Shown piece by piece: positions 1,393 to 51,200 of a stretch of DNA of 64,000 bases. A model generated the notes under the pieces. The model saw nothing but the letters and a program-made list of their open reading frames with translations. It was not told the origin of the DNA and did no database searches. Location: NCBI RefSeq assembly GCF_040807025.1, contig NC_090945.1, positions 75,341,088 through 75,405,087 on the forward strand, read 5' to 3'. Each line of letters begins with the position of its first letter. Position 1 is the stretch's first letter. Position numbers and translations under genes: made by a program. Source of the stretch: Struthio camelus (taxonomy: Eukaryota > Chordata > Aves > Struthioniformes > Struthionidae).

Positions 1393-1560
1393 AATGGTTG
1401 CACAGTTGTGGAGTTCTTATCCTTGAAGGTTTTCGAGACAAGGCTAGACAAAGTTACAGGTGACCTAATCCACCAGCAGTGACCATCCTGCTTTGAGTGG
1501 GAAATTGGACAAGATGACCTCCAGAGGTCCTTTCCAAGTGACATTTCTATGATTCTGTGA
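1393..1560 (+). mobile_element. CR1 LINE 3' end fragment (old)
   Basis: The sequence ends in the CR1 tail: GACCTCCAGAGGTCCTTTCC followed by TTTCTATGATTCTGTGA. Upstream parts (TCCTTGAAGGTTTTCGAGAC, then AGGTGACCT) match the segment before the 3' UTR. It is clearly more diverged than the copy at 40140-41130, and only the terminal 170 nt or so can be recognised. Confidence 0.85.
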
Positions 1561-4500
1561 TAGCTGATGTGGGTGGGGAAATCTGAAATAGAAATTTTGT
1601 GCTGAGGCATTCGTAGCACTTAGGAGTGTAATGAGAATGAATGGGATTTGATGGTATTTATCGCTGTATCCCCATTCACATTAAGGAGAAACTATTACAG
1701 ATTGAGCTAATTCAGCCACTGGTATTAGCAAATCAGTTGCACAGACTTTGGTAGAATATGCTGGGTGGTTTCAGTGGGTGGATGGAAATCTGTTTAATCA
1801 GAATTGCAAAGTGGCAGCATTCCAGCCAGTGGTTTGCTGTGACACTTCTACAGAGGGGCTTTGTGCCTCCCTTTCTGTGTCCAGAAAAAATCCATGTGTT
1901 TTGAAGTTTGGATTTTGTAAATGCCCGAAAATATCCAGGTTGTCACACTAATAAATCGCTTTTTTCTGTTTTGACAGCAACTCTTAGAACCATGGGCATT
2001 TTGGATGGGCTTACTAAACTGGCAAACTGATACCAATTTTTGCTACGTACACAGACAAGAAATTTGATGATACGAATGTACCCGAACTGTCTCTGCATTG
2101 GTTTCCTAACAGGACTTTGATGCCTCTAGACACTAGCATTTTTAGGTAGTTGACCCTCTGAGTGCAGACAGGAAGTGTGCGTGAAGTACCTAGGCTCCCT
2201 GTGAACTGCAGAGAGAAATTCAGACATCTTGGAAAAGCTAACCATAAACACATATATTAAGCAGAGAGAAGACTAATGCTAAGTGACAGAAAAAGTAAGA
2301 ACAGTTTTTTTAATATGTTATAAATACTATCCCTCTCCAGAGCGTAGACTCTGGATTCAAGCCTATAGGATGGTGTATCCATTCATTTTAGAGTCTAGAA
2401 TATTTTCCTGTAGACAGATATTTATGTCTGTTTTTTGAAAGAATAGAGTAAGGCTCATGCTTTCCTTTTAAAATAAGACTCCTGAAGAAGAAAATGTTGT
2501 GCTTGTTTTATATCATAGTCTTATGTTTTAAATGCTCACCCAGAAAAGGGGAGACCTCTGGTTTAGACAGAAACTGAATGGGCTATGCTCGGAAGAACGA
2601 GAGCTTTCCATCTCCTTTTGCACTATGCCAGAAGGAATCCAAGATCCAGAATGAAATAAACACAGAAGGAGTATAATTCTTTAGCTTAGTGCAGAGGAGG
2701 GCATCCTGGGTTTTGGTATGCTCTAGTACAGTTAAAATTTGCACTGAAAATTCTTTGAACTGAATATGGGAAGAACTTTGTGCAAGTCCTATACTAAATA
2801 TACAAACAGTGTCTGTCTCTTTTAGGGTTTTTTTAGATTAGGAATGTCTTAGACTAAGCTGATTGGACCCTGTGGGCACACCAGGAGAAAAGTTTTGTTC
2901 TTTCCCGCTACCCAGGGTGCACAGTTCTGAGCACCTAAACAACATTTCAGTTAAAGCCAGTGGTGCTTCAGGAATTTCATTGCCTTTGATGGCAGGCACC
3001 ATCTCAATAAAGTCTCTGCACATAGACGCCTTTATTCCAGTAAGATTTTGTGTTTGTGACCTAAGCTCCTTACTGGCTGTAGCACTAAATGACTTGACTA
3101 AAGCTACACTGTTTAAACCAAGGACTGAATCCAAATCACCTCAGTCTTGCAGCCTTACTACAGAGACACAGCTCTTCCAGTGCTTAGTACTGCTTTAATA
3201 ACCAGCCTACAGGCTCTTAAGATTGTGGATGATTTCCTCCTCCTATAATTGCTCTCAGATTTCCTTCATTTCAGGAAGGTGAACAGGATTTTCTAAGAAA
3301 ACCCAAAACTGATGGTGCTTGATCAGAAGCCTGAAGAAAGTAATTGAAACCTTTCTGTTGAGCCTTGTGGGATGAAGCCCTGGAGAGCAAAGACAAAATG
3401 TGAGCTGCTTTAGCTCAAGATAAACTTCAAACCTTTCTGCTGTAGGCAAGAGGAAGAATTTAATTCTGTGTTTGATGCTGAATGAAAGGCAGAGCTGTGC
3501 TGGCATTGGTGGACACAAAATAAAATCATTTAAACTAAAGGCCAACCCAAACAGTGGAAAAAACAGTGACTGACTCTTTTTATGCTCAGTTATAGGTGAA
3601 ATATCACCTTAGCTTTTTCCAACCAAAGAGTCAGAAATTACTTTCTTTTTGTTTAATACACAAAACCCCCCAAAAGTATACAAAGTAATTTGTAATTTTC
3701 TGCTTTGGTTTCACAAATAGATAACTGAATGATGCAAAAGTTTTGATGTCCAGACTGAGGTTCCTCATACCAGCAACATGGATAAGGCAATCTGATGTGA
3801 TGAAAAAGTTCATGCACACTGAATAGTTCGTAATTTAGCAAATTATATGTGTAGGCACATACAGAATGTTTTAACATGCCACAAATGAAATTCAGAGACT
3901 GAAATTAGGCACTCAAAGCTTAGAAAATAATTCTTCTGCACACAGACATTTTTATTCCATTTCATGCAGCATTTTCCAGGGGCCTACTGCATCATCAGGA
4001 TACCAAATGAATTAACAAATGTCTATTTATTGTTTTTCCATTGACTTCTGAGTTTTTGGCTATGTACTATTCAAATTCTTTCATTGTTCATTGTGTTTAA
4101 GGCCATGTCCTAAATGGAGATTACTGTCCATACAAGTTAGGCAGGGGACTGGCTCTTTGTTTCAGTGGAAAATCAGTCAGGTCTGAGATGCATTCAGTGA
4201 GAAGTCACCAGAATTTGAACCGATGTGGAAGAGAAATTTTTGGGTGCTTCATCTGGTGATGGCTCATGTGTGGTGACAGCTAAATCTATCAGAGGAACGA
4301 TAATTAACTTGGTGGAGCGCTATCTTAAACCACCTTACCCATTTTTGACCAGGCTAATTTCCTATTTCTTTTCTTGTAAAATAAATTGAAGCATTTCATC
4401 ATATGTCCTTGCTGAACTCATCAGGGTGCCACCAAGAAGCTAAAAAGTGTATAGCAGATGTAAATTGATTTTATTTATATAGACTAGCTGTAGAGGAGAA

Positions 4501-7500
4501 AAATTCGCACAAATCACCAACAGGATTCATGGATATTTGCTGGCAACAGGAAACGGTGAGACTTAGGAAGCTGGGCATCCACTGAAGAAAAAACTATGTT
4601 ATGACTCCAGACTTGTCACTTTCTGTCTCACCTTCTCTAACATGTTCCTATGACTGTTTTGATTCTCCTGGGCTTCTTGGTCCATGTGTGTAGTTCAGCC
4701 AGTCCCAACTGCCATCCTACAGCAAAGGTTTCGATCTGGTCCACTCATTTTCAGACCGACCTTGCTCTTCACTGATGCGTCTTTGACCCCTCTCCATTCT
4801 CAGTAGATCATTTCACTTCTCTGGCTCCTTATATTCTGGTTCATGTTTTCCATGCATTTGCATCAGCCCAGCTTTCTGTGCTAAAATATCTGCGTGCCGG
4901 AAAGGGGGTTGTTAAGAATCTGGAAAAGACAGGTACCTTCTTTTTCATTCTGAAACCCCGGCACTAACGATCAGCCAGAGGAGATGTAAGAAGCTTAAGT
5001 TTGTTCAGTGAGGACAGAATTGGTGTTGCTTAGCTTCTAAAACTGAAGATGCCTGCTGAGCCCCCATTTAAAGGGTAATTTCATAGAAGTTTAAATCTTG
5101 TAAAATTTTGCCCAGATTTTGCTGAAAACAGTGAAACTGTTCCCCCTATAAGAAGACATTATTTTTGCTAGGTTTCCAATACGTGTTGTGGTCTAGGCGT
5201 GTAGCTTCTCCAATGAAAATGCCTGCATGCTTCTAATATTGTGAAAATGTTTAAATTTCCCAGTTTTGTTCCTGGAAAAGGCTGAACAGTTGCCCAATTT
5301 TGGATGATACTTTCCAGCCTAAGGCTGAATTTTACATCCAACATGTAAAATTTCAGCCCAAATGGTTCAGGACTGGCAAAGATGTAAGCTGTTGAATACA
5401 AGGTCTTATAAGTGGAAGTGCTGGGAAGGTTTAATAGTAGGCAGTGCTACCAACTCCGCCTATAATATATCTTAAATCTGCTATTAGGTCTGTAAATTAG
5501 ATCATGCTAAAAGTAATACTAAAACAATAGCAAACATGTTTATATAGAACTTGAAATGTCATAAAAAGTTTTATAGGCTTAAGATGATATCTATATTTAG
5601 CCTGTGATCTTGCAATATAACATAAACAGAGCCAGAAGTCAAAGCATTTCAGTTTTGGTATCAGCATTCCCACAATAACCGATTGGCTAAGCTTCACTAC
5701 CTTGATCGTCTAAATAAAATTTCTGTGGGAGTTTCTGTGCTAGGCAGTTCATGCCCTGAAATCTCTGCTCAATCGTTATATGGACCAACTCCCACTGAAG
5801 TCAAGTTTTCCTGAGAGAATGTTGAGCAATAAGGATGTCCATGCATAGAAATATTTTTACTGTAATTCTAGCCACGTAGCATAGTTCCTATGATGTTTTT
5901 ATGATAAGGGAGAGCAGGATCAGGGTGTGCATATGGAGGTGGGAGTGGGAAAGTGTGTAATAATTAACATGTAGCAGACCTAAATTCTTTCTCAGTTGCT
6001 GGAAAACAGCTGAAGGATGAAAACATGAAAGAGCGCAGTTGTTTCAGACAAAGAGGCACACTAATATTTCCCAAAGGCCATGCTGAAACTGTGGTGGATA
6101 AGCAAATGGAGGATGCAACGAAAACTTAGGGATGGAAATGGCATCTTGCTGATGGATAAAGTTGGTGGATAAATTGATGGAAGGATGGGTCTTTTTCTCT
6201 CTTTTTCTCTTTCTTGACTTCTCAAACAAGAGATTGGACAAACAAAATTAGATGGCTTCAAATAGGCTTGAAACTTTAACCCACCTCTCACAGTTGCCAC
6301 AACTGTCTCTTGGTACCTCATGATCAGCCAAGATATCCTTCCACCGCTCATTGCTCAGGACCTGAGGAAAGCATATAACATTGTTTGTAGCCATTTAACC
6401 GACTTTAGCTAATCCCTCACCTCATCTCTTGGCTTCTTAATATCTTTTCTTCTCTCATATACTTTTTCCCCTTACTATCTTATGTCCTTTTGCTTACTTT
6501 TTAAGAGTTTATTTGGCCTGCCTAAGGTTTCTATACTACTGCTCTTAGTCTTATCACACCGAGACAGCTGTAAGTACCACCTTGAAGGTCACTGATTGGT
6601 ATCAGTTTCTCAGATTGAAGAGTGTCTAAGGAGATTTTTTTGCTTGAGTGAGGTGACAACTGAGGGTTAGCAACTGAGAAAGAAGCTTTGCTAGTCTTTA
6701 TTTCTTCCCATTACTGTGTGTTCATTCTGCAGAAACAGAGCTAGCAAAAGCGAGCACCTCTCCAGCCCTAGCCTTTGTTGATGCCATTTTTCTTTCCTAA
6801 AGAAGTTCATTACTATACTTAATACCATCTCAAAGATGGCCAAACAATGTGTTTATCTCCAGCAAGATTCTCAAGAACTGAAGGAAAAAAGAATGAAGAA
6901 CATTATTAAAAAGAAGGCTTTGCTTAATAATTTATACCTGCCTTTTTATTTATATTCTTTATTTTCTTCAATAAAACCCTACAGAGGTTTCTAATTACAG
7001 TTGTTGCTAGGGGATTAGCAGGCTACTAGCTGAGCTTTTCCTGTAATGCTGCACTTCAGCAAGATCATGTTAACATCATGTTAATATGTTAATATCCAGG
7101 ACTCTGGTTCCGGTTCTTCCATTGATATGAACACAAAAGCAGACATTACTTCCATTTCATTCTAAAAGTGGAAGAAAATTTCCCCCTTCTTACTGATTTA
7201 GGGAAGAAGCCCTTCTCTATAGCTCCCTGTTCTCACTGATTTGATGAAAATCATTTCTGCCACTGCATTGCACTTTAGGCGTTCTTCGACAGGGTGGTGG
7301 GTTGTTGATTTGCCCCACTGCAGAGATGAGACTTTTCCTTATCTAGACACAGAGATCCCTCGCTTTCAGTCATGTACGAAAGATTTTATTTTGGCTCCAC
7401 TCCTCTTATTAAGAAGGATGAAGATGGAAAGAAAACAAACTGAGATTCATTTTCAGCGTAGAGAAGCTTAACAAAAATCAACACAATAACGGCATAGTGG

Positions 7501-10500
7501 GATGAGGTAAATTTATTATAATCTCAAGACTTTTGAGAGCAAACATTATTTTTAAAGAAACTTTTCAAAAAGAGGAGGATTTAGTCTTTAGAGTGGAATG
7601 GGACTGTGTTGAATAAATCAAGGATAATCATACCAAACTAATTCCCTTTCAGGATGCCAATTTTCCAGAAGTTATTCAGAAGGCAAATGATGATACAAAT
7701 AAAGTACGTTTATAATGAAGCAGATGAATGGAGGCTTATGAATTTTTGAGGAAAATGAATAAAGGACATTTCCTGCTGGTTCCCTGGCATCATGATAAAA
7801 AAGAAGGTCTGTACTGATGAATATAAAAGGCATATGAATATTCCTGAAATCTAGAATCGTCTTTTCAACCTGTCAGATCTACTTTCCTTATTCTTGCTGT
7901 GCCAGGGATACTGCTTCCTCACACTCTTTTGCTTTTGTCTTCTCTTCAAAATGACATCTCTGTTAAAATGGAGTGGCAGGATTAATACACTATAGGAATT
8001 CAGAATATTTGCTGAATCTGGACTCTATAGTAGCATGTCATGGAATCTCATTTTAGAAATGAATTAAAATTACTTGGATAACTATGCTTTCAAGTAGGCT
8101 GGCAAGCAGACAAAGGACCATAAATCAAGGTTAATGATAATGGCAATGTACCAATTTGGAAGGGAAGATGAACATCAGGAGCATTGCAAGAATTGGTGCT
8201 AGGCCCAGCTTTGCTAAAAGTCATTATTTATTGTGTTAATGGAAACTAAAGAATACTAAAGTCAAAGCAGTTGCCAAAAATCTACGGAAGATGGAGAAGT
8301 CATCTTGCCTAGCTTCAGCCATCCGAGCATTACTTACTTAGTCCATGACAGTTTTCTAGATTCTCCTGAAAAAATGGTGAGAAAAAGGTACCTCAAAAAA
8401 AGCAATTGGGCTAAGAGCAATGAGTTACTGTCTGGAAGCACTTTTCTATAGAGTCAGAGAAAGTCCAGACGAGTGTGATAGATGACTGAAGTACCTTCAC
8501 GATGAGTAAATAAGATTAAACCTGGAAAAAGCTTAAATTATGCTCCTCATTAAATTTGCTTATAATAATATATTCAGCTGGAGAAAGATGCTTCAGAAAA
8601 AGTGTCAATAAAGAAGAAGCTTTAACAAGATGAGGAAGTAAAAATGAGCTTTTAACATTAAATAATTCCAGAGTCAAGTGTTTTGGAGCTTCATATATGG
8701 GACTCAGATAGATAGGTAATAAATAATTCCATTGCAACACTAATAAGGAAATATATATTGAAAGTGAAGAGTAACAGTATTGAACGAGAAGTCAAAGGAA
8801 TAGTTCAACAAATCTTTTATTGAAATTAAAGAAAAGAGTCAAGTTTGGCCAAATGATGACTAAGAGAGAAAAGAAATCCTCCTAAAAGTATTTATTTAAA
8901 GATGAAAACAGCAACGGGAGTGATAGCCCAAGGGGCATGAGTAAGGAGGATGAACTCAGTATAGCTATAAGCTGAATATTAAAACTATTGGTTAAATCTG
9001 GGATTCACAAGACTCTGAAATATTTTACAAGAGAGAGGATGGAAGCCCATAACATCAGGGTTTTTTGTTTGTTTTATTATTTTTAATTAGTTTTTATGAA
9101 ACAGTGAGAACATGTTCCTATGCTAATTATGGCATGAGCAAATTAGAAGTGAAGTAAAATATGAATGTGGCCCTCTAAAGACTGAAAAGAAAAAGTGGTC
9201 AGTCTTGAATCCACTCTTAAGGCTTGTCCAAGGAAAACTGAATGAGACAGAAGAAACAATGAAATCAACACTCTTATCTAGTGGCTGGGGCCTTTCCTTG
9301 AGAGATGGGAGCATGTTCTCACAATTTTACTGCATCTGAGTGTCCTATTCCTACAGTATCCATAGTAATTGGACAAGATACTTAAACAGTTCTTACCACA
9401 AGAACTGGAACCCAAGTCCACTCTCACAAAGGAATTCTGTAAACAGAAAATAAAAGGATGTTCTCTTGGCCTAGCCATTCCTTTATAATTTCAAGGAAAG
9501 TTGGCTGGCTTCAGGAGTGGTGTCATCTTCCAGCAGCTCAGTGTTTAGATCCCATTTCCGAGACATTTGATATTCTTTAGGCTAAGAAAATAACTGGAAG
9601 CATTTGTTTCACAGCTAGGCGAATGCTCTACCGCCTGCATCACTGGATAAAAGACCAGCACTGAAACCACCAAAAGCTTTGCTGGCAGTCCCATGCAGAA
9701 CCCTGCTCAGCAGATGTGCCATAGAAAACTTGAACGTATAAGAAAGATGGAAGGATTTTTGTTGTCGGTATCTTCTCATGTAAATGACGTGCTGGTCTTC
9801 TCAACATCGTCGATCTGGAACATATATGTGGTTAATGTTGCACAGATACGTAAGTTACTGGTCAAAATTGAGGCACCAAAGGCCACCACTTTGGAGTTAG
9901 GCACCTAAATGCGCCCCACATCTGACCTTATATCACTGATTCTGCAAAACATAATGCACAGACTGCACCGCCTGCCTGGAAATTCACTGGGAAGAATGGT
10001 CCCACAGTCAATAAAAGCCCCAGAGTTGATTTTCAGGAAGCAAGGGTGGAGAATTTATATCTCTGAAGGCTACCTGTTCACACTACATCACCTCTGTTAT
10101 TAATCCTGAAAACCTTGTAATCATCTGGAAACAATTTACTTTGTATATATTCAAGAGCTTTGGACACTGTCTATTTCCACCTGCCACAAAGCAATTCCCT
10201 GCACTGCAGGTGGTCTATTAAATAACACAAAATTCTTGTTTAGGGTTAAAAAAAAAAAGGCTTTTGCTTTCTGCAGCTTGGCTTGGATTTTTATTGACGG
10301 GGTATAGTGGACCATTATGTCACTTTCACTGTAAAAATCAGCAAGCCATGAATGCATCAATGTCAGCGATAGAAAAGAAAGGCCAAGGCCTGCAAAGGAG
10401 CTTAAGGTTCTTATATCCAAAACATAGATCCTTGGAACCATGTCATATCTGTAATAGAAACTGAATTCCCATCAGCACAGATATGTAGAAGCCTACATTT

Positions 10501-13500
10501 CTGGTGTTGGGCATACGAATTTTTTTTTCAAATCCTGATAATCAATCAGTGTCTGAGTCCTCTCAGAGTCCCTAAACTCCACATGTTGTGTCAGACTTAC
10601 TTGTGATGTCCAGTAGATGCTCTCAGGGCATGTTCCAATCTTCCACAGAACAAAGCATGGAGGAAGAGGTGAAATCTCTTTTTAGCCTTTAATAGACCAG
10701 TGATTAAGGCATCAATGGATGAAAATCCTTCCACCTTCTAGTCTGGCCCAGGAGTCTTCACTGAGATCTGTATTTCTTACATAAGATCAGTGAAGCTTCT
10801 CCCGTCTGTGGATCCTCTTGTTCTCCTGCGAACGCAAAGAGAAGGTGTGTGCCTAAGCCCTCGCCAGGCTGTGAGGAGCGTGTTCAAACCATCGTGCTGT
10901 TGGTGGACAGACTAGTGTAGGCTGCTTTTGGTGTTTCTGGATGGAGTTATTTCACTATGCATAAGCTACTGAGTATTCACTAGCTTATGGAAGAAAGGAA
11001 AATGGTGAAATGACTCTCTGTTATCACTTTGTAAGGCACCTTGACCAATGTGTAAGCGACTCAAACCTAGATCTCTTACCTGGATGAGTGCCCTGATCAT
11101 ATGAATATTTGGCAGGGAGAAGCATGAACATTTAAGGTTCTTTGTGAGAAAAGTGCTAGGCTACACTGGGACCTTATTCCAGGCAGAAATTTTCCTATAT
11201 CCTAGGAAAAGGGATCAAAACCTACATTTTGGACAATGTGGCCAATTTGGGCCAATGATGGAGTAGAAAGCAGAAGATCTGGTCTAGGTTCTCCATGGTT
11301 CAGGAAGATTCGGGTTCACAGGTCTGAGCAGGGCTTACTAACCACTAGTCTAGAGGCTATTCTAGGCAGAGTTAAGGCACCCATGCAATAGGTTATGACA
11401 CAGAAAAGAAATAACTGGGTCATTGAATAGGCAAAGGCAGGCCATGGCTCTTAACGATCAGGGGAAACGGATTCCTGGGTTGCAGTCACAGAAGAATCAT
11501 CAGGAACAATATAGAAATAGTCTTTTTTTCTTAACTAGGTATATCATCACCTTCATAGATTAGCTGAGGATAGATAAAGCACTTTCATAGACTTAGATAG
11601 CACTAGATAGCTTCAAATTGCTGCAAGCAGTCCTTCCACTGTTTGCAGGGTGTGTTGAAAGTGAGGCTGAAGAAGTGGGAATTGAAACAGCATTCTTTAG
11701 GTGGGTGGATCTGCTTGTCACCAGCTATTGGCAAGGTAGATGCTGCTGCGTCAGGGCCTTCAAGTTTGGATTTTTAGACGATGCGTTCTTGTCTCAATCC
11801 TTAGGTATTCCTGATGTTACAGTATCATTATTAATGACAAAAAAGTCTCTGGCTTTTTTTTTTCTCTTTATTTAAGAATAGCTGTATTAGTCTGTCTAGC
11901 TCAAAACGGATCTTTGCTTTTCTAAACTCTCACTAATATTTACCTGGGCTGCTGTTAAAGTGAAAATCCATTTGCTTCTCTTTAAGTAATGCAATTGAAG
12001 TATGGCCTCGTTGTGAGATGTAATTTCCATCTAATGCTTGAACTAGACATCATGAAATAAAATGCAGAGAAAGATTTACGAGTCACCAAGGCTTGAGCTA
12101 ATGTGCTGATAGCTGTGGAATTTCAGATGTTCAAATACAATTACTCACAGCTGCGGCAGGGTTTTCTTAATTTGCCGAAGCTTGTAGAAAATAACCCTAC
12201 ACACGATAATAAGTGAAAGTTTAAACTATATATGCACGCTTGACTGTTTACAGTTTTAAATAGTTCTTGAAAGCAGCAAAAAAATCTTTTAGAATCATCT
12301 TAACATGCAATGAAATTTCTGAGCATGGATCAAGCAAGCAAGAGTACAAGGGACTTTTCAGACTGTCGTGCCTGGGGGAAGCGTTCTGGCTGTGTGCACA
12401 GGCTTGCACCTGCTTTGCAGAATAGCTGCGGACACATCCAAAGTCCTCTGGGAAGTGTCTTATTGACTTCTATTTGATTGAAGCTTTCCTCAACTTCTAA
12501 GTATAACATATACAACATAACAGACCAGGTCCTGCCTTGAATACTCATTTGAAATATTCAGTGATATTAAGTGAATGCTTTCTTCAGGTAAAGGCTGCAA
12601 CATCAATTTCTTTATTAAAAATAATCCAGGATTTGATGAAATGTAAAGCTGATTTACGAAAATGTCACATGCCGAAGCCCACTCAATTTTTTTGGGATCA
12701 CTTGATGCTATTTCCAGACACTAAATTGAACATACCCTATGCCTTTTTCTGCAGGAGAGTGCAATCTGCTTTTATGTCTCATCCTTGAGATAAGTTCAGA
12801 AGAGGGGAAAAAAAGCCATTGGAATATCCACCAAAGACTACGGGCGGTGCATGTAATCATGTAGCTGGGGTTGCTTAAGAGTGCTGTTTTTTTGCCTGTA
12901 TATATTAGCTGGCAGAACACTTATTTGGATGGGCTTATAAATGCATACTGATAAAAAAGTTTCTACCAGTATAATTCCTTCCCTGGCCAAAATGACCTAT
13001 ACAAGTGCAAGCATATCTATATCAGTGCAACCATGTTTATACCATCGCCAGGCACAGTTAAAGAAGTATAGCCTTTTGTCCTTGGTCTCTTCAGAATACA
13101 CCAGCATAACAACAACGTTAAAGTTTGGAGATTAGATCATTTTTGTGAACAAATTATGAATCAAATTAACTTCTCCTACATTTGGCAAATAGTCCCAAAG
13201 AGAACATGTTTAAAGAGATCTCTTGGTCCCAGTAGAGGCACATTCATTTTTTTGTTCCGCATCTTTCAAAGGCTACTTGTGGCAAGCTCACCAAGTGTTT
13301 GATGTTGGTAGTGTGGTACTGGCACTTAGGAATGGGTTGTTTGTGGTCTATTTTTGGACAACAAAAGCACAGCAATGTGTTAATGAATGTTTGATATTTC
13401 AGTTCTTTCAGGGTAAGACAACAACAACAAAATAAACCAAAAAACCCTCTATTTTATTTGAATTACAACTATCTGTGCAGCTGCAGGGTAATGAAAGTCT

Positions 13501-16500
13501 AGGAAATTCAGATAAAGGAAAAAATCTGGATCTGGACTGGTTAGCTCATACTTGGGCTGTTAGTTGGTGCCATCCGGTGAGAGAACATTATAAACCCATT
13601 GGTACCTCTATACTAATATATGGAGTTAGTTTATGTCCAGAAGCACCAATCTCATGTCCAACTAATAAAGGCATACAGTGGAGATGATAGGTAGCACAGA
13701 GAAGTTTCATAAGAACCTGTGCTGAGTGGCCTGGTTGTCTGGTGTGGCATTATCTGCAACCCAGAGAATCCACTAGCGGATAATGGGGAGCTGACTGCAA
13801 GTGTATTTATGGATGAAGAAAAACATTGCATCAAACAATGAAAATTTTACTCTTAATATAACAAGGGATCTTATTTTTGTGCTCAAAAGTGAACAAAAAT
13901 TAGACGTAAGCTCACCTAATTTCTTTTTAATTTGTGAGTCACTGGAAGAGAAAAATGCAGTAACAACTATGATAAATTTTCAAGGCTTGACCCAAAGTTC
14001 ACTGAGGTCTGTGGATGCTTCTCTATTGTTTTTCATGGTCTTTGCAACAGCCTCTTAGTAACCTTCTGTGTGCAATGCCTTGGCTTTCATAGTTCGTCAT
14101 ATTACTCAAATTTCACATTGCAATAGAATAAATACATCATATCATTTTGAGGAAGGTAAAAATTTTCAGAGAATGGTTCCAAAGCCGTTAGGGACAATGT
14201 TTGCAAATTGTGGTTATATATATTCAATCATCCCTAATGAAATCAGTCAGTACGTGTCATTCCGAGATGAAGCAGTTGAGTTAGGAAGATTTCCAGGTTG
14301 CTGTATGTTTTCAGGAATTTGCTGCAACAAATGAAAAATCAGTCTGTCACGAGAGAAGCAGCCTACTAGACATCGCTGGGTGTGTGGACTTGGATGAGCT
14401 CTACCAAACAAATATCTTCCAAGGGATCAGCTCCATCAGATGCTATTTGAACACTGATAAAACAAATGTGCTAGGCACAGGCAGTTCAGAACAGACTACA
14501 GTGAATTGTAGAGTTTGCAAAACAAACATCTTTGAAAGTGCAAATTCAGCATGCAAGTAGTTTGTGGTCAAGACGAAATTGTCAGTTTTGTTTTCCTTTG
14601 TTCCTTTTCTTTTTCTTTTTGGTTGCTTTTATTGAAGAAGTCTTTCGTATTTCCTTGAAGACTCTTCTAATAGTCTTGCTATTTGTAAGAGATATGCCGC
14701 TGCAAAAATATTGCTGTGCAAAATTATCTTCTACAATGTCAAGCTTCCATTCATTTTCAATTTGTTTTAAAAATAGTTCTCTATGTAAATAATCTCTGGC
14801 ATAGTAGCACTTAACCATTTTAGCTAACATGCCCTTTATGTGACAAATTGGTACAGAGTACTTTATATTTTAAACATTGATTCTGTTTGAGAGAGCAGCT
14901 GTTTGACATGTAGCTATTTCAAGCCAACTCCACTTTCTAAAATCATTCTAATCAGATTGGATAAACTTCTGATGTAAATACTTTTTTCCAAAACACACCA
15001 GTGATCTTTTTTTTATTCGGTATTGTAAGATTCAAACTGTTCTTACATGCATGAAGAAACTGTTATTACTCTCATATAAACACTATGAGACATTCATATT
15101 TATCTTCTACCTCCTAGACAGCTTGTATATACATGCCTCAGTATACTTAAGTCGTTTAATGTTTAAGCCTGAGTTTGAATATCAGACAATGCTATGTCTG
15201 CTCCTATCTGTAGGTCTAAATGGAGATTTAAGCCCACATTTAATAGATTGGCTAAAGTAAGACTGAAATCACAGACTTCCAATGAACTTATCAAACTTAC
15301 TTTGGCCTTAGCAAAGACTGAAATGTGGCATTGCCTATCTTCAGGGAGCGGTTTCCAGCCTCCAGGAATCTCTCGTGTGCAGGCATTGCTGTGTTTGCTA
15401 AATGCTTGTCTCCTGGAGAAGGGCTGAGGTCACAGAGTGGAGCTCATGATGCACGAAACGTTTCCAGCACACAGCCAGACAATGGGACTTGGCAAGACCA
15501 TGAGCCCACAAGCCCCCACGCTGCCTTTTGCAGAGGCTTGGGAGCCTCCCTGAAGGCCACCACAACATGCCTTCCTCCCGTTAGGATGCACCATCTCGCA
15601 TTTTGTCTTAAGGAGAGAGGTTACAATTGCTGTTTCAAAGACCCAAGTCAGAGCTCACCTTTAAAGAACATCTGGAGGTAAAGAGGGCTGTGCCAAAGCT
15701 AACCTTTTCCATCACATCCTACTGACTAGAGATTGGGCTAAGAAATGAGAAAAGTGGGCTAACTTCTCTTTCTGCTTGAGGGTTTCCAGCTTTTCTCACT
15801 GCCTAAGAGAATGCCCTGCTCACAGAGCTCTAGGACTGGCTGTCCAGGAACACTTCCAACCTCCTGTCCTGAAATTATTGCACTAGGCAAAACTCCCTCT
15901 GGCCTAAAGAGTCTGGAGTCCTACAGGAGAGTCAGATGGTCTGGGACATTAACCCAGTGAAAAAGGAGCATCCCTGAGAGAAAAGAGGAAGACTAAGGTT
16001 TTAGTCCCTGAGGACTGTTCTCATATTTTATGTTCATAAAATAAAGCCATCCTGGCATAAAATCAGAATTCAGCCCTATGTATGTGCCCAGTATTTTGCA
16101 AAGTTATCTTCCTTTTTCTGCCTAACCTGATGAATCTGGCATTTTCAGCTGCATAGAGAGGCAGCTTTCACAGGAGGAGAGCAGAAACCCCCCTCACAGG
16201 CAGAGCAGCTGCAAGCCCCTTCTTCGAGAAAAGACCCAAACCCCCTCAGCCGAAGGCTTGGAGGACTGAACCCAGGGCCTTTCTGTCTGAGTGTCACAAC
16301 AAGTAGGAGCTAGTATGCACAACAAGTATGCAGCTACATAATAGGGGCACAGGGGGATATGAGGAGCGGTAGATGTCTATGCATTTAGTGCCTTCAGGGT
16401 CGGCATGATCCGAAGGGGTCATTGGTCAGGCTTTGCTTCGTTGTGTCGGGGCAGTTCAGGCCATCCAAGCATCAACACGCAACTCTGAGCACAGGGGGGA

Positions 16501-19369
16501 CATCAGCTACCAACAAAACTCAAATGTTTCCAGGATTAGTAGCAGCTGAATGAGAATTTTCTACATTACAGTTACGAATTCAGGCTCTTCATTCAATCAT
16601 ATTTGACTTTATTGGAGGTAACCTTTAACGTCTCTGCCTGTCTTCGTCTCTGTAGTGGGGAGATATATGTCTCCCTCCTTGCACTTCAAGGAGGGTTTCG
16701 ATATCTGTCACGAATGACCTCATCCCTCCCCTCTTCCTGCCTGTGGATGATCGTTCCTGGGAGAAGTGCTCAGGACTTTGTGTGGTCTGGCTTTGAAAGA
16801 CTTCAGAGACAAGAATTGGCCTCTTCCCTTATGGGACAGTTCCACATCCTAGTTTGTTTTAAGGGTAGAAATTGTATTCCAGTTTAAATTTTCCTCTTTC
16901 CTGACTTCATCCTATGAAGCTCATCTAATTATACCAGACAACTGAGCCAGACCTAATTCAGCCAAATTTATGCTGGCTAAGTTCAAGCTTGATGAGTCTA
17001 ATTTCCCTTCAGCTTGGAAAAAGCACCACGCGTGTGGCAGAGTGGTAAAACAGTCTCCTGATTACTGAAACAGGTTTCTGAGGCCCAAGCACCCTGATAC
17101 AAGTGGAGCTGCAGTGAAGGCTGACAGCTCGGGCCACGTCTCCAAAGTCCATCCTTGACATTTCCTGTCTTTCTGTCAATTTTATTTCCCTTTCTATCAG
17201 CTGCTAAGAAACTGATTTTTCTACTTTTGGAACTAAGTCTTTGCATTTTTAGCAAAGAAAAGACCTGTTTTTCAGCCCCTTCCAGCCACTGCCATTTACC
17301 ACAACTGGGACTGAATCTTATTTCTGTGCTTCCACTCCTTTTTTAACTTCCTGAGTCCAGTCTACAGGTAAATTTAAAATCCTCTGTGGCACAGTCGGCT
17401 ATATGCAACATATGCAGAGCACTTTAAAAGGATTCTGGAAAGAAGCTTAGAGTTTATTATTAGATGGAAACACTTTTGTTTCTGATGTGCAATTAGGGAA
17501 TAGCAAATCTTTCATGAAAATATGAACAATTGGGATAAAAATTCCAGCGGGCTAATACCCCTTGTAACGTTCAGGCCTGGCATTTACATTAAAAGTCTCT
17601 CTCTTTCAAGACATGATCCTCTTGATTCTCCGCTTCACGACCACAAAGAAGCATTTAATAAGTCAGGAGCCTACTATGAAAAACTGTTTCCTCTGCTATA
17701 CCAAGGAATTCATAAACCCATTTTTCCTACCTTTCCCAAGAGTGGGGAAAGGGTTACTTAAGATGTGACAGATACCTCTGTTAGAGAAACCGTTTGATGG
17801 GAATTAGGCCAGGTTTGGATTGTTTCCAGAGCAATTCTGAGAGCAGCAACTGTAAAGGGTCTGTAAAAACACCAGCCTGAATCATTTACTTGCTGTCCTT
17901 TCCCATTTGCTTATCTTTGAGCAAAACTAAAAATAGAGATGAGTTATGGGGCTCCAAACAACTATGTAGAGTAGAGCATTTGAGAGGGTGGTGTGTATTT
18001 AACAAGAAATACTTTATAATTGAAACAGAAATAGTAGGAGCTAAACATAAAGTTCTCAATTCATTTGGAATCTGGAGCTGGCAGTTTTGCCTTTATGGGA
18101 GTTTTGCTGATTTCCTTATTTGAACCAATATGAAGTGCTATATACATGTTTCTTTTCAATCCAAGCATTTCAGTGATCCAGTATTTTTGGTACATATCAG
18201 TATGTACAATCTGCCAACTAGAAGTCAAAATTAAAAATCAGATTTTGTCCCCTCAGTCCAGCCCTAGACGAACCGCCTGCGAGGAGAGGTAACACTGAGC
18301 ATTATTGAAGCCTCAAAAGTGGCTGAGAGAAGCCACACATTTTTTGCCAGTTCTCTTCTCTTTGTTTAGCTTTGATGAGCAATTCCAGGGATGGAGTTGC
18401 TTTCACTCTGGTTGTAGAGATGCACAGTTTGCATCCTCTCATGTTCATCCCAAACCAGAAGGTTCAGCAATAGTTGACGTTGTTGTATGTCTATTTATTG
18501 CTCCCAGACCAAGCTAATAAGTTGTCCATGTGTGTGATTTGTTTGAAAAGCTACTGCACAAATCCCTCCACCACTCTTCACCATGTGGTGCAGACATCCC
18601 CTAAATTCTCCTGGGCAGATGGGAAGCAGACTGTTTTCCTGAGGACAGATGTTTCAGATCAACAAAAAGCAAAAGCGCTTTGGGTGAAGCATTGCCAGTG
18701 GATAGCCAGCTACTCCTGGGCAATACAAAGTGTGACAGAGAAGCAACCAGTGGAATGCAAATCAAAATACCAAAGTTTCTCAGTCCTTAAATCGCCCTGT
18801 GAGTGGGCAGTAAGTGACCAAGAGTAGGAGTTCTCTAATTTAGTCGTAGCTGTCTAAAAGTGAAGAGTCTGGTCTAAGCTAGCTTTCAAGGCTCCTTCTG
18901 TAAAGGGGAAGAGAGAGGACTTACCCAGTCCTAAGACAGATGTTTAAAGCTGGTGGGATGAACTGCCCTTTGGAGATGTGCCTCTTCCTACTGACTGTTG
19001 AAAAAGCCTGGATAGCAGTTTAGACACAGCTAGAGTTCGAGGTGATGAATCCTACCCCTATGACAGAATGACCAGTAAAAAGTCCATATTAAAACCTAAT
19101 GTGGGGCAATAATTAACTTGAAGGTATCTCTTTAAGAGAGATTTTTATACAGCTTTTTTTTTTCCAGAACAAATCAATTGTCTAAAAATACCAGAGCTGC
19201 TTCCATTCAGTCTTAACAAAAATAAACAAACAAACAAGCAAGAAAATTTTTTCATTAGCGACTGCAATTACTGAATAACAGGATATGATTTTCCACCACA
19301 TCCTATTTCTAGCTGCAGGCTTTTTGAAAATGCACCAACAGCCTGGTTACAGAACTGGCTTTTAGACTG
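1561..19369. other. Intergenic, no supported gene
   Basis: About 17.8 kb without recognisable exons on either strand. The longest frames (118 codons at 15325-15681, 117 at 18474-18827, 111 at 2863-3198, all plus strand) show no known motif and no coherent splice context. Short pieces resemble old repeat tails, for example TGTAGTGGGGAGATATATGT near 16652 and AGTTAGGCACCTAAATGCG near 9895, but are too decayed to name. A pyrimidine-rich tract lies at 14585-14625. Confidence 0.55.
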
Positions 19370-19389
19370 AGCTCGGTTGTGACCGAGCT
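19370..19389. repeat. 8-bp-stem hairpin next to the ACOX3 exon relic
   Basis: AGCTCGGT and ACCGAGCT are exact inverted copies around a TGTG loop. It starts 28 nt from the degraded ACOX3 exon, on its 3' side. It may be chance. Confidence 0.7.
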
Positions 19390-19417
19390 TTCCAGTGACA
19401 GCAAGTTTCTTCTTCAC

Positions 19418-19495
19418 CTCTCCGTCAGGTCTGCCAGTTGGGTGAGTTCAGAATTAAGTCAGGAGGGGCAAAGACATCACTGCATCATCTTTCAG
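19418..19495 (-). pseudogene. Degraded duplicate of the penultimate ACOX3 exon
   Basis: Read on the minus strand, this segment begins CTGAAAGATGATGC, continues GATGTCTTTGCCCCTCCTGA and ends at GGAGAG|GTGAAG, matching the exon at 48291-48377 along its length. Compared with that exon it has a 10-nt deletion after the KDDA codons and a 1-nt insertion before the GKANGE codons, so the frame is broken. The AG acceptor is lost (it reads GG just before CTG), while the donor GT remains. About 50 nt of intron upstream (to roughly 19545) also match the functional intron (CCATAGA, TTGCCAA/CTGCCAA, TTTGTTT), so this is a genomic duplication and not a processed copy. Orientation is the same as ACOX3 and it lies 19.7 kb past the terminal exon. 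Confidence 0.85.
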
Positions 19496-19545
19496 CCCTT
19501 CAAAAACAAAGAGCGCATACTTGGCAGCACTTTAATTTCTATGGT

Positions 19546-21269
19546 TACTGATGAATAACAGAACAGCTGGGGAACTGTTGCTACAACCCGCTAGCAAAGA
19601 TAATTTAAGAGGTCACACTTAGGCAGATCCATTACAAAAACACTGGGGTTTTTTTTCAGGGATAATAAAACTGAAGGCTATAGGTTGTACTCTTTGGATT
19701 AATATCAAGTGGACTACCCAGATAGTCATAAATTTGTCCTCATTACTCTCATTGTTTAGAAAGCAATAAGAAGAGTCACTGAACCAGGGCTGGTGGTCTC
19801 TGGACTAAATTTTGACCAGGAGCACAATTTGCTTGGATTTTGTCGCAGTCTCAGACAGTGACGTCTCCCATGCTAATGCAGGCAAATACTCGAGGCAGCT
19901 TGGAGAGCCGTTCTGGTCAGGAAGACCTCTATCCAAGGCATTGCTTGCTACCAGCAGGACAGTGATAAAATGCTCTGGCAGAGCCTGACAAAAATAATTG
20001 AGTAACCCTGGATCAGACTGATTTGGGAGCTCTGACACAGGCTTCTTGCATGACCTGGGTGAAATGACTGTTTTGTGCTTTGAGTTTTGACCTATACTCC
20101 CTTTCTTATCTCTTAGGGTCCTGCAGCCGTGGTGACTTCACCGCAATAAAACATATCTTTAAATATTTGAGAGATGGGACTGTAAAGGCCTTTTGGGCAG
20201 GGACAGTCTATTCCTTTGTTTCATACAATGCCCCATTCAGGAAGGAGGTGAAGGCAAAATATGCTCTTCTTTTGGCCTGCCATGCCCTAGCTGTGGGCTT
20301 GTGTGAAGCAAGCCCATTCATAAAGTAGCCAGTGGTAACAATGACTTTCAGAATTTTTTTCTACTTTTGCAAATTCACAAAAGTAGTGTGTAGTCAAGGA
20401 AAGGAACAACCATTATTTTATATGGCTGTGGGTAGAATTTTAAAGTAGTCAGTTAAATATATAAAACAGTTATTAACAGGCTGAACTCGTGAGCTGGTCC
20501 ACAGAAATGCAGTGTTGTCGTCAGTACCAGTGTCGCACTTTTACATTCAGTGTACTGTAAGATTAGTATTAGAAAAGACAAATGAAATCCACGTCAGTCC
20601 TTTAGAAGACTCTTCTTTCTACACATTAGCTACATACACTGGAACAAGCACGCCATTGAGAATAAAACCATTGACATCAGCAGAGTTTCACCTGGGACGA
20701 ATTTGGCCTACTTCTGCTAATTGTGTCATTACCGTCAAGCTAAACTGAACAATTCATTAGTGGCAGACAGCTGAATTTCTGAACGTGTGTGTAAGCTCGC
20801 TCTAACCACCAGCACAGTAGAAACTACTCTCAGTAGCTCCTCTAGGCAACCAAGGACACCATGAGGATGAATAAATAAATATAAAGAGTGAATGTTTTCC
20901 AGTTTGCTCCATGTCTGGAATAAGGGACACTTTTCTAGCTCTGAAACTAAGCCTTCCCTGCTTTTAGATGGCACCTTTACACGCACCTTTTTAAAGCTAG
21001 CACTCTCTACCTTCTGCCATGTCCGATGATCCCACTGAACTTAACAGTGTTATTTCTTTCTGTAGGTTAGAGGCTTTTATTACTTGTTGTGCCTTTCCAA
21101 AAATAAGCTAGTAGGCCATTGGTTATTTCATTTTTGAAAATTATTGCTCAACTCTTTTCCTGCAGTCCAGGGTGAAGGTGGAAGTACCTTTTTTATTTCT
21201 TTTTATGCCTAAATGCCCGTTTGTACCTGCCGGTTACATTCCTAGCAATAACTTAAGCAATGCCAGGCA
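19546..21269. other. Intergenic; possible old repeat tail
   Basis: No gene. At about 20190-20235, GGGCAGGGACAGTCTATTCC followed by TTTGTTTCATACAATGCC resembles the old repeat tail seen at 36440 and 29990. An 82-codon plus-strand frame covers it (20080-20328) and is probably fortuitous. Confidence 0.45.
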
Positions 21270-38169: not shown

Positions 38170-38250
38170 GTCTCTTCCATTTGAAAATACAAATATTTAT
38201 TTTTATTATTTATAAAAATATTTATTTAAAATATTTATTAATATAGCTGA
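38170..38250. repeat. AT-rich low-complexity tract (ATTTATTT-like)
   Basis: Repeated AAATATTTATT units over about 80 nt, roughly 0.9 kb past the ACOX3 stop. If the 3' UTR extends this far these would read as AU-rich elements, but I see no evidence that it does. Confidence 0.7.
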
Positions 38251-38883
38251 TGATAGAGAAAATTTGTAGTATGTTCAGTACTGCCTATCACACAATTACA
38301 TGTTCCTATAGCATAACATTTTTAATAACTCATTCGAGAGCATTTTGATTTAAAAAAGTAGGTGCAGTTTCTGTGCGTGCTGACTTATCCCAGGTTTATT
38401 GCTCGTTTTGCAGCGCTGAAAGCACTATAACCAACAGGGAACATACATAAGACTTTCAAGTTTGCATTACCATACTTTTTTAAAAAAAGAATAAATAACT
38501 CATTTTCAATTAATTGCATTTACAGAGATATGCACAATTCAAAGTCAGATTACCTAAAATCTCAAAGCCTCTCTTGCATTGGAAGAACAATCAAGTATTT
38601 TAATGTCAAGGCACATGAAGTAAATCCGAATAGCTTCTTGGACTTTAAAAGGGCTGTTTGAAATGATTCCCATTCCTTAATACATGTTTATCCCTATTGG
38701 TGCTCTTGATATCTTTTTTTCGTTCTCCTTCTTTTTTTCAGATTCTCTTTTATTTTGCTAATATTCTTCTAGACTCTTGAAAAAATGCTTTTGTTCAGCT
38801 TGTTCATAATCAATGGTGGCACAAGCCTGTTAATTATTTAACTTCTGTAATATGCCAGTAAACTCAAGACGCTATTGGAACAT

Positions 38884-39172: not shown

Positions 39173-39292
39173 TTACAATCTTGACCTCAGCCTGCCTGTA
39201 ACAGGTTTATTAATACAAAATTCTGCCCACCATGAAGGTCTGTTCAGAGCTTTGCTGCCTTGAAGGATCTCGGCCCACATATTTTTGTATAA
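39173..39292 (-). CDS. ACOX3: ACOX3 terminal exon with PTS1 (SRL) and stop
   Basis: This 120-nt exon encodes 39 residues and a TAA stop. It begins [20 protein letters not shown] and continues [19 protein letters not shown]. The WW-EF--NKP block matches the ACOX3 C-terminus. The last three residues, SRL, form a type-1 peroxisomal targeting signal; human ACOX3 ends SKL. The acceptor is cttaattttgcag. The exon is separated from the previous one by about 9.0 kb of repeat-rich intron. Confidence 0.93.
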
Positions 39293-42200
39293 CTGCAAAA
39301 TTAAGAAAAAAAAAAGATTAATTTGTACAGAAAATAAAACCAGGAACATTTCTGCAGGTTTATATTATTCGATAAATATTTGGTTCAAATGGGATTGTGA
39401 CTGAATTTCTAGATAACAAATGTGGTAATTATGCACGAGCTAGAATAAATGCAAAGATAAAGGATAAAACTCCAAACTAGTGTAAACATCAGGTTACCTG
39501 TGTAAATCATTTAGACCATTCTTGGTATAAGAACAGTTACCTTTGTATTCTTGTTGTGATTATGTTGTTTTCAATTTGACATCAGTTGTATTATCAAAGG
39601 TAGAAATTTAGAGGCAAGGCTAAATTAAGCTAATCTTCATTCTGTCCACACTGAAAACTGTATCTGAAAGCACTCATGTACGTCAATACATTTCTGCCAA
39701 GTAACATAACTTCTCTCCCAGATATGAACTTTTTAGTCTGAGAATAAGAAATTCCTCTCTCACAAGCAGATTGTTAATTCATCAGCAATTTTATGAGGGA
39801 TAAACAGCATTACAGAAATATGAGGGAATGAAAGCAATATCTTCAGCAGTAAGTATGAGTATAGTATAATACAGTAAAAGAGCAGTCAGTGATGTAAAAT
39901 GGAAAGCCTTTCATCGACATCAAAAGAAGGCTTGGCATTAGATTTCTGTAATTATTTAAATAAATATTGAAATATATTCTTTGAATATATTTACCCCTCG
40001 ATTATTTGGGCTAGAGCTTACTGAGACTATTTAATCCATTCCAAGTTTGTTTTAATATTGTTGCACATTTTTTAAAATTAATCTGGAAATAAATGTAGTG
40101 AAAACTTTACATACTTAAGCTGAGATTGTCAGAGCTTCAGAGAATCACAGAATGGTTGAGGTTGGAAGGGACCTCTGGAGATCATCTAGTCCAACACCCC
40201 TGCTCAAGCAGGGTCCTCTAGAGCACATTGCACAGCATCGCCTCCAGGTGGGTTTTGAACATCTCCAGGGAAGGAGACACACAGCCTCTCTGGGCAGCCT
40301 GTGCCAGTGCTCTGTCACCCTCACAGGAAAGAAGTTTTTCCTCATGTTCAGATGGAACTTCCTGTGGTTCAGTTTGTGCCCATTGCCTCTTGTCCTGTCG
40401 CTGGGCACCACGGAGAAGAGACTGGCCTCATCCTCTTGACACCCCCCCTTCAGATACTTATACACGTTGATCAGATCCCCTCTCAGTCTTCTCTTCTCCA
40501 GGCTGAACAGGCCCAGCTCCCTCAGCCTTTCCTCGTAAGAGGAAAGGCTCCAGTCCCTTCATCATCTTTGTAGCCCTCCGCAGGACTCGCTTCAGCAGCT
40601 CCATGTCTCTCTTGTACTGGGGAGCCCAGCACTGGGCACAGTACTCCAGCTGAGGCCTCACCAGGGCGGAGCAGAGGGGCACGATCACCTCCCTCGACCT
40701 ACTGGCCACACTCTGCCTAATGCAGCCCAGGATCCCATTGGCCTTCTTGGCCACAAGGGCACACTGCTGCCTCATGCTCAACTTGTTGCCCACCAGCACT
40801 CCCAGGTCCTTCTCGGCAGAGCTGCTTTCCAGCAGGTCAGCCCCCAGCCTGTCCTGCTGCATGGGGGTTATTCCTGCCTAGGTGCAGGACCCTGAAGTTG
40901 CCTTTGTTGAACTTCAGGAGGTTCCTCTCCACCCACCTCTCCAGCCTGTCGAGGTCCCTCTGAACGGCAGCACAGCCTTCTGGTGTGTTAGCCACTCCCC
41001 CCAGTTTAGTATCATCAGCAAACTTGCTGAGGGTGCACTCTGTCCCTTCACCCAAGTCACTGATGAATATGTTGAACAAGACTAGACCCAGTATTGACCC
41101 CTGGGGGACACTGCTAGGTGCAGGCCTCCAACTTCCATGGAGAAATCATGCCCAGACTATTAAAGTTTATTTTAAATAGAATCTGAACTTTTGTTCAGTG
41201 CTTAAAGCTGCCTATTACACATTTGGAAACTTTTCTCCTGCTCCAGCTAAGGATCTCTGACTCTAGGCCCAAGCCACCCCACTGCAACACAACATGGATT
41301 ATCCTGAATTAAATTCATATGCCTGTTTTGCTTTTAAAATCTATTCTACATCACATCATAATTTGTACTAAAATGTTTGCACTGTTTTCCTTTCTCCTCT
41401 ACATTTCCTTTCCTTTCATATGAAACACAAACTGTCTATAACTCATTCATGAATAAGACGTGTGAAATGGAGAGGAAAGTATGAGACTTAAAATAATCAT
41501 AGAATTACAGCTATGAGAAAGGTAATGAAAAATTCTGATTGATACAAATATTTAACATATATGTAATTAGAAAGAAAGAAAGGTATCCAAATGTAAGTTT
41601 TAATGCTGCATTATTTGATAAGCTGCACAGATAGGAACAAACAGAGAAATAAATACAGGCATTCAGGAGACAGGGGGCTTTATCAAACAGTTTCTTTGAG
41701 TGAGTGACTGGTAGCCTTTTTCAAATTTCAGCTGCAGGTATTTACACAAGTTGAAAAGCGTGGACTAAAAGGTAGTTTGCAAAACTTGCCTGAATCCTAC
41801 AGAACATGGATTGGATATCACTGCTTGAAATTACTTTCTCGATATGTGTTTAAATATGACTCTTAATATTTTTACAAGAAACTTAGGAAGTACTTAGAAG
41901 GTAAGGAAGTCAGCAATGTTTAGATTCCTATCCACATAACACTCACATTATTCAAGGTCTGTATAGCTATAGGTGAAGTTGGTTGTCTGATGTTTTCAAA
42001 AGTCTTAAAATGCAGTGCTGCTCAACTGAAAATAGACAGTTGCTAGAAGAGCTAGCATCACTCTTCTATCACAAGGGATTTTCTAAATAAAGGAAATTCT
42101 GTAAGAAAATTAAGCTGTATAGATTTCAGTGATGTATTTGGAAGTCCATCAGTTCTAAAATCCTAACATTAATGAATTAAATAAGTCTCCATGGCTAGTA

Positions 42201-48200: not shown

Positions 48201-51200
48201 GTAAAGTGTCTTGAATATGTTATGGCCATTTACAAAAACAAACCCTTTCAAGATGATTAGATTTATAAATACTAAAACAGGTTTTAATACCTCTCCGTTA
48301 GCTTTGCCAATGGGAGAGTTGAGAATGAAGTCAGGAGGAGCAAAGACATCAACCAAGGCAACGGCATCATCTTTCAACTGTTTAGAAACAAAAGACATAC
48401 ATTTGGCAACTTTTGTAGGTGTCTATGGCTATCTGTGAACTCGAGAGCAGTATTAAATTACTTCCGTATATTACCAGCCACTGGTAACTTAACAGAAAAC
48501 AACTGTAAGCAGACTAGGTTTATTTTGCCTTTTTTTTTTTCTCCCAAGATAATTACCAAAAAGAGATTGTATTTTAAATGCTTTCTTTTGTTACTTAGGA
48601 GTTTTAAGACACATTTTAACTAAGATGGCACTGTTCATGACATAAAAACACAGATTTAAGAATGTGAAAAGCATAACTTCTAGATTCTTATTTGAAAACG
48701 TATCTTACCTGGGAAAAATATGAGCCAGTTTGAAAAGCTTTTGTGTTGAGAAAAAAAACCATGAACTAACAATATAATTAAATACATAGAACTGGAGTAG
48801 AGATCTCAAGTATTTGGCTAGTTTTCCAGTAAAAATTGCAAGGCCACAAACGAAAGAGCATCATTTTGTAGAAATATATTGTTTTCCAGTTTTTGGCAAA
48901 AAAACTAGGACTATTTTCAGGGTCAATGGGTTATTAGCCTTCTCTTTATATCAAGTTATTTAGAAACAATCAATATAACATTCTGCTAATTTACCCCTTG
49001 AAGTACAGAATAACTGACATGTCTCTTTTTTTAGTACTCAAATATTATATCATTATTCTATCACAACAAACAATATTGATGGCTTACCCTGTAGCAAAGC
49101 TCCAGAATAGCATTCTGAATAAATCTACCAGCTTGTTCGCCTGAAACATAGCCACCTGCAAATACATTTACAATAAAATGATACAAAGAAACTTAAATCA
49201 TTTAAAGTTATACTGTTACAAAGGAGTTTATCAGTTCAGTACACAAGAGACTAAATGCTCTTGCACTGACTAGCTTTCATTAATGAGCTGACTGCAAACC
49301 CCTTAGTCTAAGACTTTTGGAACCTTCTGCATGAATAAACCACATTACAGCATCTGGCTGTATATTTCCTGTCCTCTCCCGCAAGGGCTGGAGCACACCA
49401 AAGCTTGTGAGCACTCCATCCTCTGTGAGCTAGGAGTGAATCTTCTGGGTTAATGTATAGCTTTATACTTCCAAATCCCTGCTCCTGAAAATTCTGCCCA
49501 GAATGACTATTTTACATTACACAGGCAATAACAAAATGCTCTAATGTAAATCCTAATTAGGATTCTCTCCTCCTGCCAAGAGACAACGTGGGAAAAAAAA
49601 AAACCCTAATTCTGAAATTAGGACTTTTATAAAGTGACATGCATAATCCATATAAGGAGCTGATCTCACCTTGGTAGAGCACCGCCAGATGTTTACTTAA
49701 AGACCAGAGGCCATACAGAGCACTGAGGTTCTTAAGCACAGGCTGCAGAGTAGATGGTACGTTGGGATCATGAGTGTAGTCATGATATCTTTGTAAGACT
49801 GTTAGTTCAATGAAAGCAATGGCTAATGATCGACAGTAGTACACCTTAGGAAACAGAAAAGAAGGATACTGAGTAACAAAATACAAGGAATGAATATCCA
49901 GCTGGTTCAAAATGGTATTGCTCAAGTGAAGCTGGTGGAGATGTGTCCATTTACATTGGCTGATAACATAGGTTAAGATTCAAAGAAAGTCTAACAAGAA
50001 ACTACGAGGAAATTTTAACAAGAAACTACGAGGAAATTTTCTACAATGTCCTTGCAAAGGTTAGTCAAAAAATGCCTCATGCAAGTAGAAGAAAGATCCT
50101 TATTTTCCACATAGTCCAGTTTGGGTAGTCACACCAGTCCTAAGAGAGGACAGATTCAATGTTTAAAACCTAAGCGGTGCAATTTGGCAGCACCTTGCAC
50201 CCATACTGCGTGGGTTCAAGTAGCTACATCGCAGAGGAGTCCATGGAAATTCAGGTCTGATGACCTTAGGATGATCAATAACCCATACAACTCTAAGGTG
50301 ACAAAAGTAGGTTTAGATTTCAATTAATATATAGAATTTTATAAAGGGAATAACATTTTCAGAGGTTCAGTAATCTACTGAAAACTTAGCACAGTCCATT
50401 CAATTAATAAAAAAATTAAATCTGATCATGTAAGCGTGACTCGATTAAATACAATGGCCTGCAATATGCTTTGAAAGAACTACCCAGCTAGTCTTTGCCA
50501 ACTATCTGATCAGAAAGGTAAAAGTCACCACTTACTGTTAACCCAGAGTACAAAATCTTAAATAGTTGTACTGGCACAGGAAGACTTGTCTACCTTGACA
50601 TGTTTCACCTTTGTTGTATCGTGGCATATGTCATACGATGAAATAGGCTGCTAGGTGAAGACACTCTAGTGGATGAATAAGAGGGGAATATGAAACTCTT
50701 TCTTTTGTGGCTGATTTGTTGCACTACTGTAAACCTGTATTTGCTTTTAACTCATTTGTTTAGTTTGTGCCATTTAGAGTTAGTTAATTAGTTTTCCTTT
50801 TTTTTTTTTCTAACTTGCATCATCCTTGCATTTAAATCAATTGTGGGATTTAAGAAAGGCATATTGCAAAGATCACTGTCTCTCTCTGTATATAACTGTT
50901 CAGTGGCATACTTGATAGCAAGCTTATACGTAAGTATGAACTGGAAAATCCACATCTATTCTCTACAGGCTTAGGAAAGACTTCTTCCCTTACTAGATGG
51001 ACTTGTTTAAATCAGAATATTGAAATGAGTGTCAGTTCTCTAGTCATAATGAAATAGGTTTCAATATCCCAAATGAAGCATTAAGAATTATTTCTTTATT
51101 CTTCTGCCCTTCTTCCTTCTTCATCTTTGCTTGCACTTCTCTGTTGTTTTAATCAAGTTTCTGGCTGAAGACAAATAGACACTCCTCACTACTGAGGTTT

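Follow-up and report, generated by a model that had tools for sequence, protein, structure and literature searches.

Downstream of ACOX3 (a fat-burning enzyme gene) in the ostrich, Struthio camelus, lies a broken second copy of one of the gene's own exons. Does this copy mark a second ACOX3 that once stood here, or only a small piece of the gene copied into intergenic DNA? A first-pass annotation had taken it for the last remnant of a tandem ACOX3 paralogue, with a partial segmental duplication as its second option. The window – the whole 64,000-nt stretch of contig NC_090945.1 that was analysed, positions being counted from its first letter – was extended by 40 kb on each side for analysis of the neighbourhood (positions below 1 or above 64,000 lie outside it).

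The relic and its parent exon

ACOX3 runs on the minus strand from 39173 to at least 77777 (approximately 38.6 kb, 16 exons mapped). A gap of approximately 62 kb, within which the relic lies, separates it from HTRA3 on the plus strand (about -38511 to -23238, outside the window; inside the window there was no significant match to HTRA3, best E 0.34). Both genes were recognised by matches to human proteins. The terminal exon gives ACOX3 the C-terminal end SRL (SKL being the usual peroxisome-targeting end and SRL a variant), and its position shows that the parent exon was rightly called penultimate.

Table 1. Features of the relic and of its parent gene, in positions of the window.
Feature	Position	Strand	Remarks
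Relic of penultimate ACOX3 exon, 78 nt	19418..19495	-	Two stops, flanked by a 10-nt deletion and a 1-nt insertion
Relic of upstream intron, ~73 nt	19496..19566	-	AG to GG at 19496-19497
Donor GT, kept	19416..19417	-	End of homology; following 50-80 nt not above chance
Parent: intact penultimate ACOX3 exon, 87 nt	48291..48377	-	29 residues
Parent intron stretch matching relic flank	48378..48450	-	
ACOX3 terminal exon	39173..39295	-	Ends RSRL-stop
ACOX3 exon next upstream of parent exon	49088..49156	-	No relic found

The relic block (19416-19566) is a match to the penultimate exon, the donor GT and approximately 73 nt of upstream intron. Within the window, 19416-19533 and 48289-48413 align in the same orientation at E = 5e-17, with identity in 98 of 130 columns; under relaxed scoring the match grows to 19416-19566 against 48289-48450 (71% over 164 columns, E = 8e-17), and the best block of the relic reaches 85 bits. 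In the local alignment 67 of 76 exon bases are identical. Ten substitutions separate the two exons – nine in these columns, plus the first exon base (TTG/CTG), which falls outside the alignment – together with the two indels, whose net effect (-9) is a multiple of three; between the indels the frame is shifted, and it is there that both stops fall. The acceptor AG of the parent (complement of 48378-48379) reads GG in the relic. With a 10-nt deletion, a 1-nt insertion, ten substitutions and an altered acceptor, the relic is unable to code.

Alignment and shuffling (below) therefore bear out what had first been described: a 78-nt match to the 87-nt exon with both indels and a lost acceptor. The location "29 kb downstream" holds as the distance from exon to exon, the relic lying approximately 19.6 kb beyond the terminal exon. 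Homology to the upstream intron is likewise present, but its length, first put at about 50 nt, is now 71-73 nt (to about 19566/48450; 51 of 65 aligned bases identical, seven gap openings).

The relic is a real but ordinary gene fossil, of the unprocessed pseudogene fragment or exon-relic type: homology to a known gene takes in exon together with intron, and the coding frame is disabled. With unprocessed (duplicated) pseudogene fragments it shares an exon with its intron flank, frameshifts, a lost splice site and a parent on the same chromosome, but it comprises only one exon, approximately 150 nt in all, with no sign of a whole-gene copy. With processed pseudogenes it has in common the single exon, whereas it retains intron sequence, has no exon-exon junction and shows no poly(A). 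A retrocopy of the mature mRNA was rejected, because the intron flank is kept and the sequence after the donor is not that of the terminal exon; the earlier reading as an unspliced, DNA-level duplication in the same orientation stands. An origin from ACOX1 or ACOX2 was rejected too, the relic's core DVFAPPD being that of the ACOX3 exon (in comparison to protein sequences only).

Where the homology ends

Chance similarity is ruled out by the E-values together with shuffle tests of exon and upstream intron: none of 2000 dinucleotide shuffles reached the score observed for the exon, and none of 2000 that for 80 nt of upstream intron. Outside the 78 nt, the similarity thus exceeds chance on the upstream-intron side. 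Beyond the donor, 80 nt of downstream intron are at background (517 of 2000 dinucleotide shuffles as good; 287 of 1000 in a repeat). Among 1000 simulated downstream flanks, 0.3% scored as low as the observed flank at 25% substitution, rising to 1.6% at 30%, 7.6% at 35% and 17% at 40%. The block has a sharp edge on the donor side. At 19370-19389, ending 26 nt before this edge, there is a perfect 8-bp hairpin (AGCTCGGT-TGTG-ACCGAGCT), which may be due to chance.

Extent was tested by semi-global scoring in 50-nt steps against random places in the window (600 per step). The first step of upstream intron was equalled at none of the 600 places, the next three at 230, 41 and 134, and the remaining eight at 196 to 580; the downstream steps were equalled at 591, 17, 194, 422 and 449. 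Because 16 outer steps were tested, the two moderate values (41/600 and 17/600) are probably noise. On the upstream-intron side there is no sharp edge. A further 80 nt of intron give a weak best local match (175 of 1000 shuffles as good), yet one on the expected diagonal, and the anchored score, 13 at 90 nt, has recovered to 18 by 120 nt; nhmmer extended the relic match to 19615 and, when given a longer query, as far as 19923, there at low posterior support. Homology on this side fades from 73 to perhaps 135 nt into the intron: the block is securely about 150 nt long and may reach approximately 215.

Search for a larger copy

The self-comparison suggested with the first-pass annotation was extended to the whole gene (39001-80000) against the whole gap (-23200 to 39000), at E up to 0.1. 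It recovered the relic and no further piece of ACOX3: the other two of its three matches are a pair of CR1 elements with 93% identity (40141-41133 and -4638 to -3642) and a short CR1 piece at 1487-1565. With 16 mapped exons and the introns compared, no relic of another part of the gene, in gene order, was detectable in the whole gap of approximately 62 kb; relics of the terminal exon and of the exons at 49.1 and 49.8 kb, already sought without success at first pass, are among those not found. One element of the pair is a CR1 LINE of about 1 kb (40133-41133, last ACOX3 intron), and its copy outside the window is inverted. A reverse transcriptase match in the CR1 open frame falls just below the Pfam cut-off (27 vs 29.6 bits, E 4.5e-06) and agrees with this identity.

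Two candidates for further relics were dropped. A gappy match to the terminal exon at 17779-17899 gave a same-strand E of 0.25 with nhmmer, against 0.84 for the best match on a reversed control, and when the terminal exon was tested locally against 1-19415, it scored no better than background (239 of 300 shuffles equalled it). A tblastn match at 41201-41281, just past the CR1 element inside the parent's last intron, had E 0.004 without composition correction and 0.74 with a longer query. Against the ostrich's own genome (1.45 Gb, 262 contigs), a 201-base DNA query gave two scored candidates, the relic and its parent; a dispersed repeat, which had been named at first pass as a reading to check, is rejected as far as this search of first-look candidates, which was not exhaustive, reaches.

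If a whole gene had been copied, how much of it should still be seen? In a first simulation, 25 kb with 11 exons decayed at one pace in exons and introns, four times for each of two indel rates. At 22% substitution every one of the 11 exons was found again, along with more than 99% of the sequence; the yield was 9-11 exons at 28%, 4-7 at 33%, and 0-1 at 33% with the higher indel rate. This last setting lies at the upper bound of the mismatch in the relic's intron (share 0.215, interval 0.13-0.33) and well above that of its exon (interval 0.06-0.20). In a second, the full gene decayed by point mutation and small indels, its exons 0.6 times as fast as its introns (10 runs per setting). Of the 16 exons, 14-16 were found at exon divergences of 0.13-0.18, 10-14 at 0.21, 6-10 at 0.24, 1-10 at 0.27, 1-4 at 0.30 and 0-3 at 0.33. 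The settings 0.27 and 0.30 leave few exons, and in one of their 20 runs the best block scored as high as the observed one (85 bits). Since 14-16 of 16 exons stay detectable at 0.13-0.18, and the K2P distance of the relic exon from its parent is 0.13, a whole-gene copy that decayed through small changes alone is unlikely; large deletions would otherwise be needed.

Origin and age of the copy

We think it probable that the relic is a single short patch, duplicated from ACOX3 in the same orientation and decayed since. A short patch is favoured because only the relic (besides CR1) matches in the comparison of gene and gap and because the donor-side edge is sharp; the 50-nt steps past the first in the upstream intron, not clearly above background, count for it too. 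One stretch, from the last part of an intron through the entire penultimate exon to the donor GT, would have been copied once into the intergenic DNA that separates ACOX3 from HTRA3. The likeliest route is a patch in the repair or replication of broken DNA, with ACOX3 DNA (or pre-mRNA) as the template that filled a nearby break. The copy would probably never have been a gene, and substitutions and small indels would have accumulated in it without constraint. The partial duplication offered as a second option at first pass thus fits; its original length was probably only some 150-215 nt.

Templated insertions in human cell lines are given as 73-414 bp (median 191) in PMC5110952, and the size of the relic agrees with this range. 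Class 2 insertions lack a target-site duplication and poly(A). Neither is seen in the relic (19376-19420 and 19552-19640 have no common word of at least 6 bases), but its junctions are old and its upstream edge is uncertain. Those insertions, however, are described as polymorphisms in people, derived from distant regions, which counts against a patch, whereas the relic is old, lies 29 kb from its source and has worn junctions. Also against a patch, a local tandem duplication that deletions afterwards trimmed would likewise account for the same orientation and the 29-kb distance, and homology on the upstream side has no clear-cut end (the diagonal match, the rise in score at 90-120 nt and the nhmmer extension to 19615).

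These last points lend themselves to a larger tandem or segmental duplication that took in several exons, or even the entire gene, and was reduced to the relic by large deletions; such a copy may once have worked. This is possible, though rather unlikely. The copy is local, unspliced and in the same orientation, with its donor kept, and there are hints of faded homology further up the intron. Its exon has diverged less than its intron (0.13 vs 0.26), as a once constrained copy would, but constraint on the parent alone predicts likewise. Two relic residues (R and D) agree with human ACOX3, so the copy could be old; because ostrich ACOX3 has K and N there, ACOX3 itself may have changed after copying. 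Against a larger duplication stand the lack of a second relic of the 16 mapped exons or the introns anywhere in the gap, and the simulated survival of exons given above. Moreover, since the gene is approximately 38.6 kb and only about 20 kb lie between relic and ACOX3, most of such a copy would have to have been deleted. The last remnant of a tandem paralogue, as first proposed, is therefore not borne out: copied exons should still align, the gap holds no other match besides CR1, and the donor-side edge is sharp.

The sharpness of that edge, within about 2 nt of the donor, could also point to an RNA template: ACOX3 pre-mRNA that retained its upstream intron, had its donor cleaved in the first splicing step and was reverse-transcribed into a break. 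The size, too, fits templated insertions, argued in PMC5110952 to be RNA-derived. However, relic and parent share the GT that follows the exon (a 1 in 16 coincidence) and the edge could be off by several nt; a same-strand landing near the parent is not specially predicted, and next to the donor edge there is no T stretch, the form a poly(A) tract would take on this strand. An RNA template is for these reasons improbable, and there is a marginally slimmer chance still that the relic is the fossil of a splicing intermediate that was reverse-transcribed and patched a nearby break in a bird germ line. That it is a conserved functional element or still usable exon is very improbable, for although it keeps the donor and a net indel that is a multiple of three, it has lost the acceptor, contains two stops, lies beyond the terminal exon and shows a divergence compatible with neutral decay.

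For the short patch, the K2P distances (exon 0.13, intron 0.26) fit one copy under neutral decay, set against a parent exon under constraint. At a neutral distance of 0.30, no more than 11 exon differences have a probability of 0.08-0.16, falling to 0.02-0.04 at 0.36 and under 0.01 at 0.42; the measured distance lies below all three, and there the shortfall would be smaller still. Exon divergence is thus somewhat low, and the copy may have passed through a constrained phase. Avian neutral rates are about 1.2-1.9 per site per billion years; with the intron distance, these place the copy very roughly at 40-180 My, with a centre at 70-110 My. At that age it is predicted to be avian and not common to crocodilians, and the block is a marker datable by scoring across birds. 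The consequence for ACOX3 biology is small, as the block is no good evidence of a second ACOX3 lost here; it is a clean example of how a short duplicated exon can pass for what remains of a lost gene.

Among the titles and abstract openings found for ACOX3 with birds, tandem duplication, HTRA3 or pseudogene, nothing concerns this locus; in PMC11061390 both ACOX3 and HTRA3 are named, in cattle. Rfam gave no match at the gathering threshold within the window, and PDB searches with window translations gave weak matches only (best E 0.77 and 0.11). An AT-rich tandem and self-complementary array (38187-38268) lies directly downstream of ACOX3, and an ACOX3 intron holds a 24-bp tandem repeat of 2.3 copies (49985-50040). 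Outside the window are a low-identity self-complementary stretch beyond ACOX3 (83103-83868) and, near HTRA3, a second short local duplicate of approximately 50 nt and 88% identity (-26000 to -25954 and -9174 to -9126).
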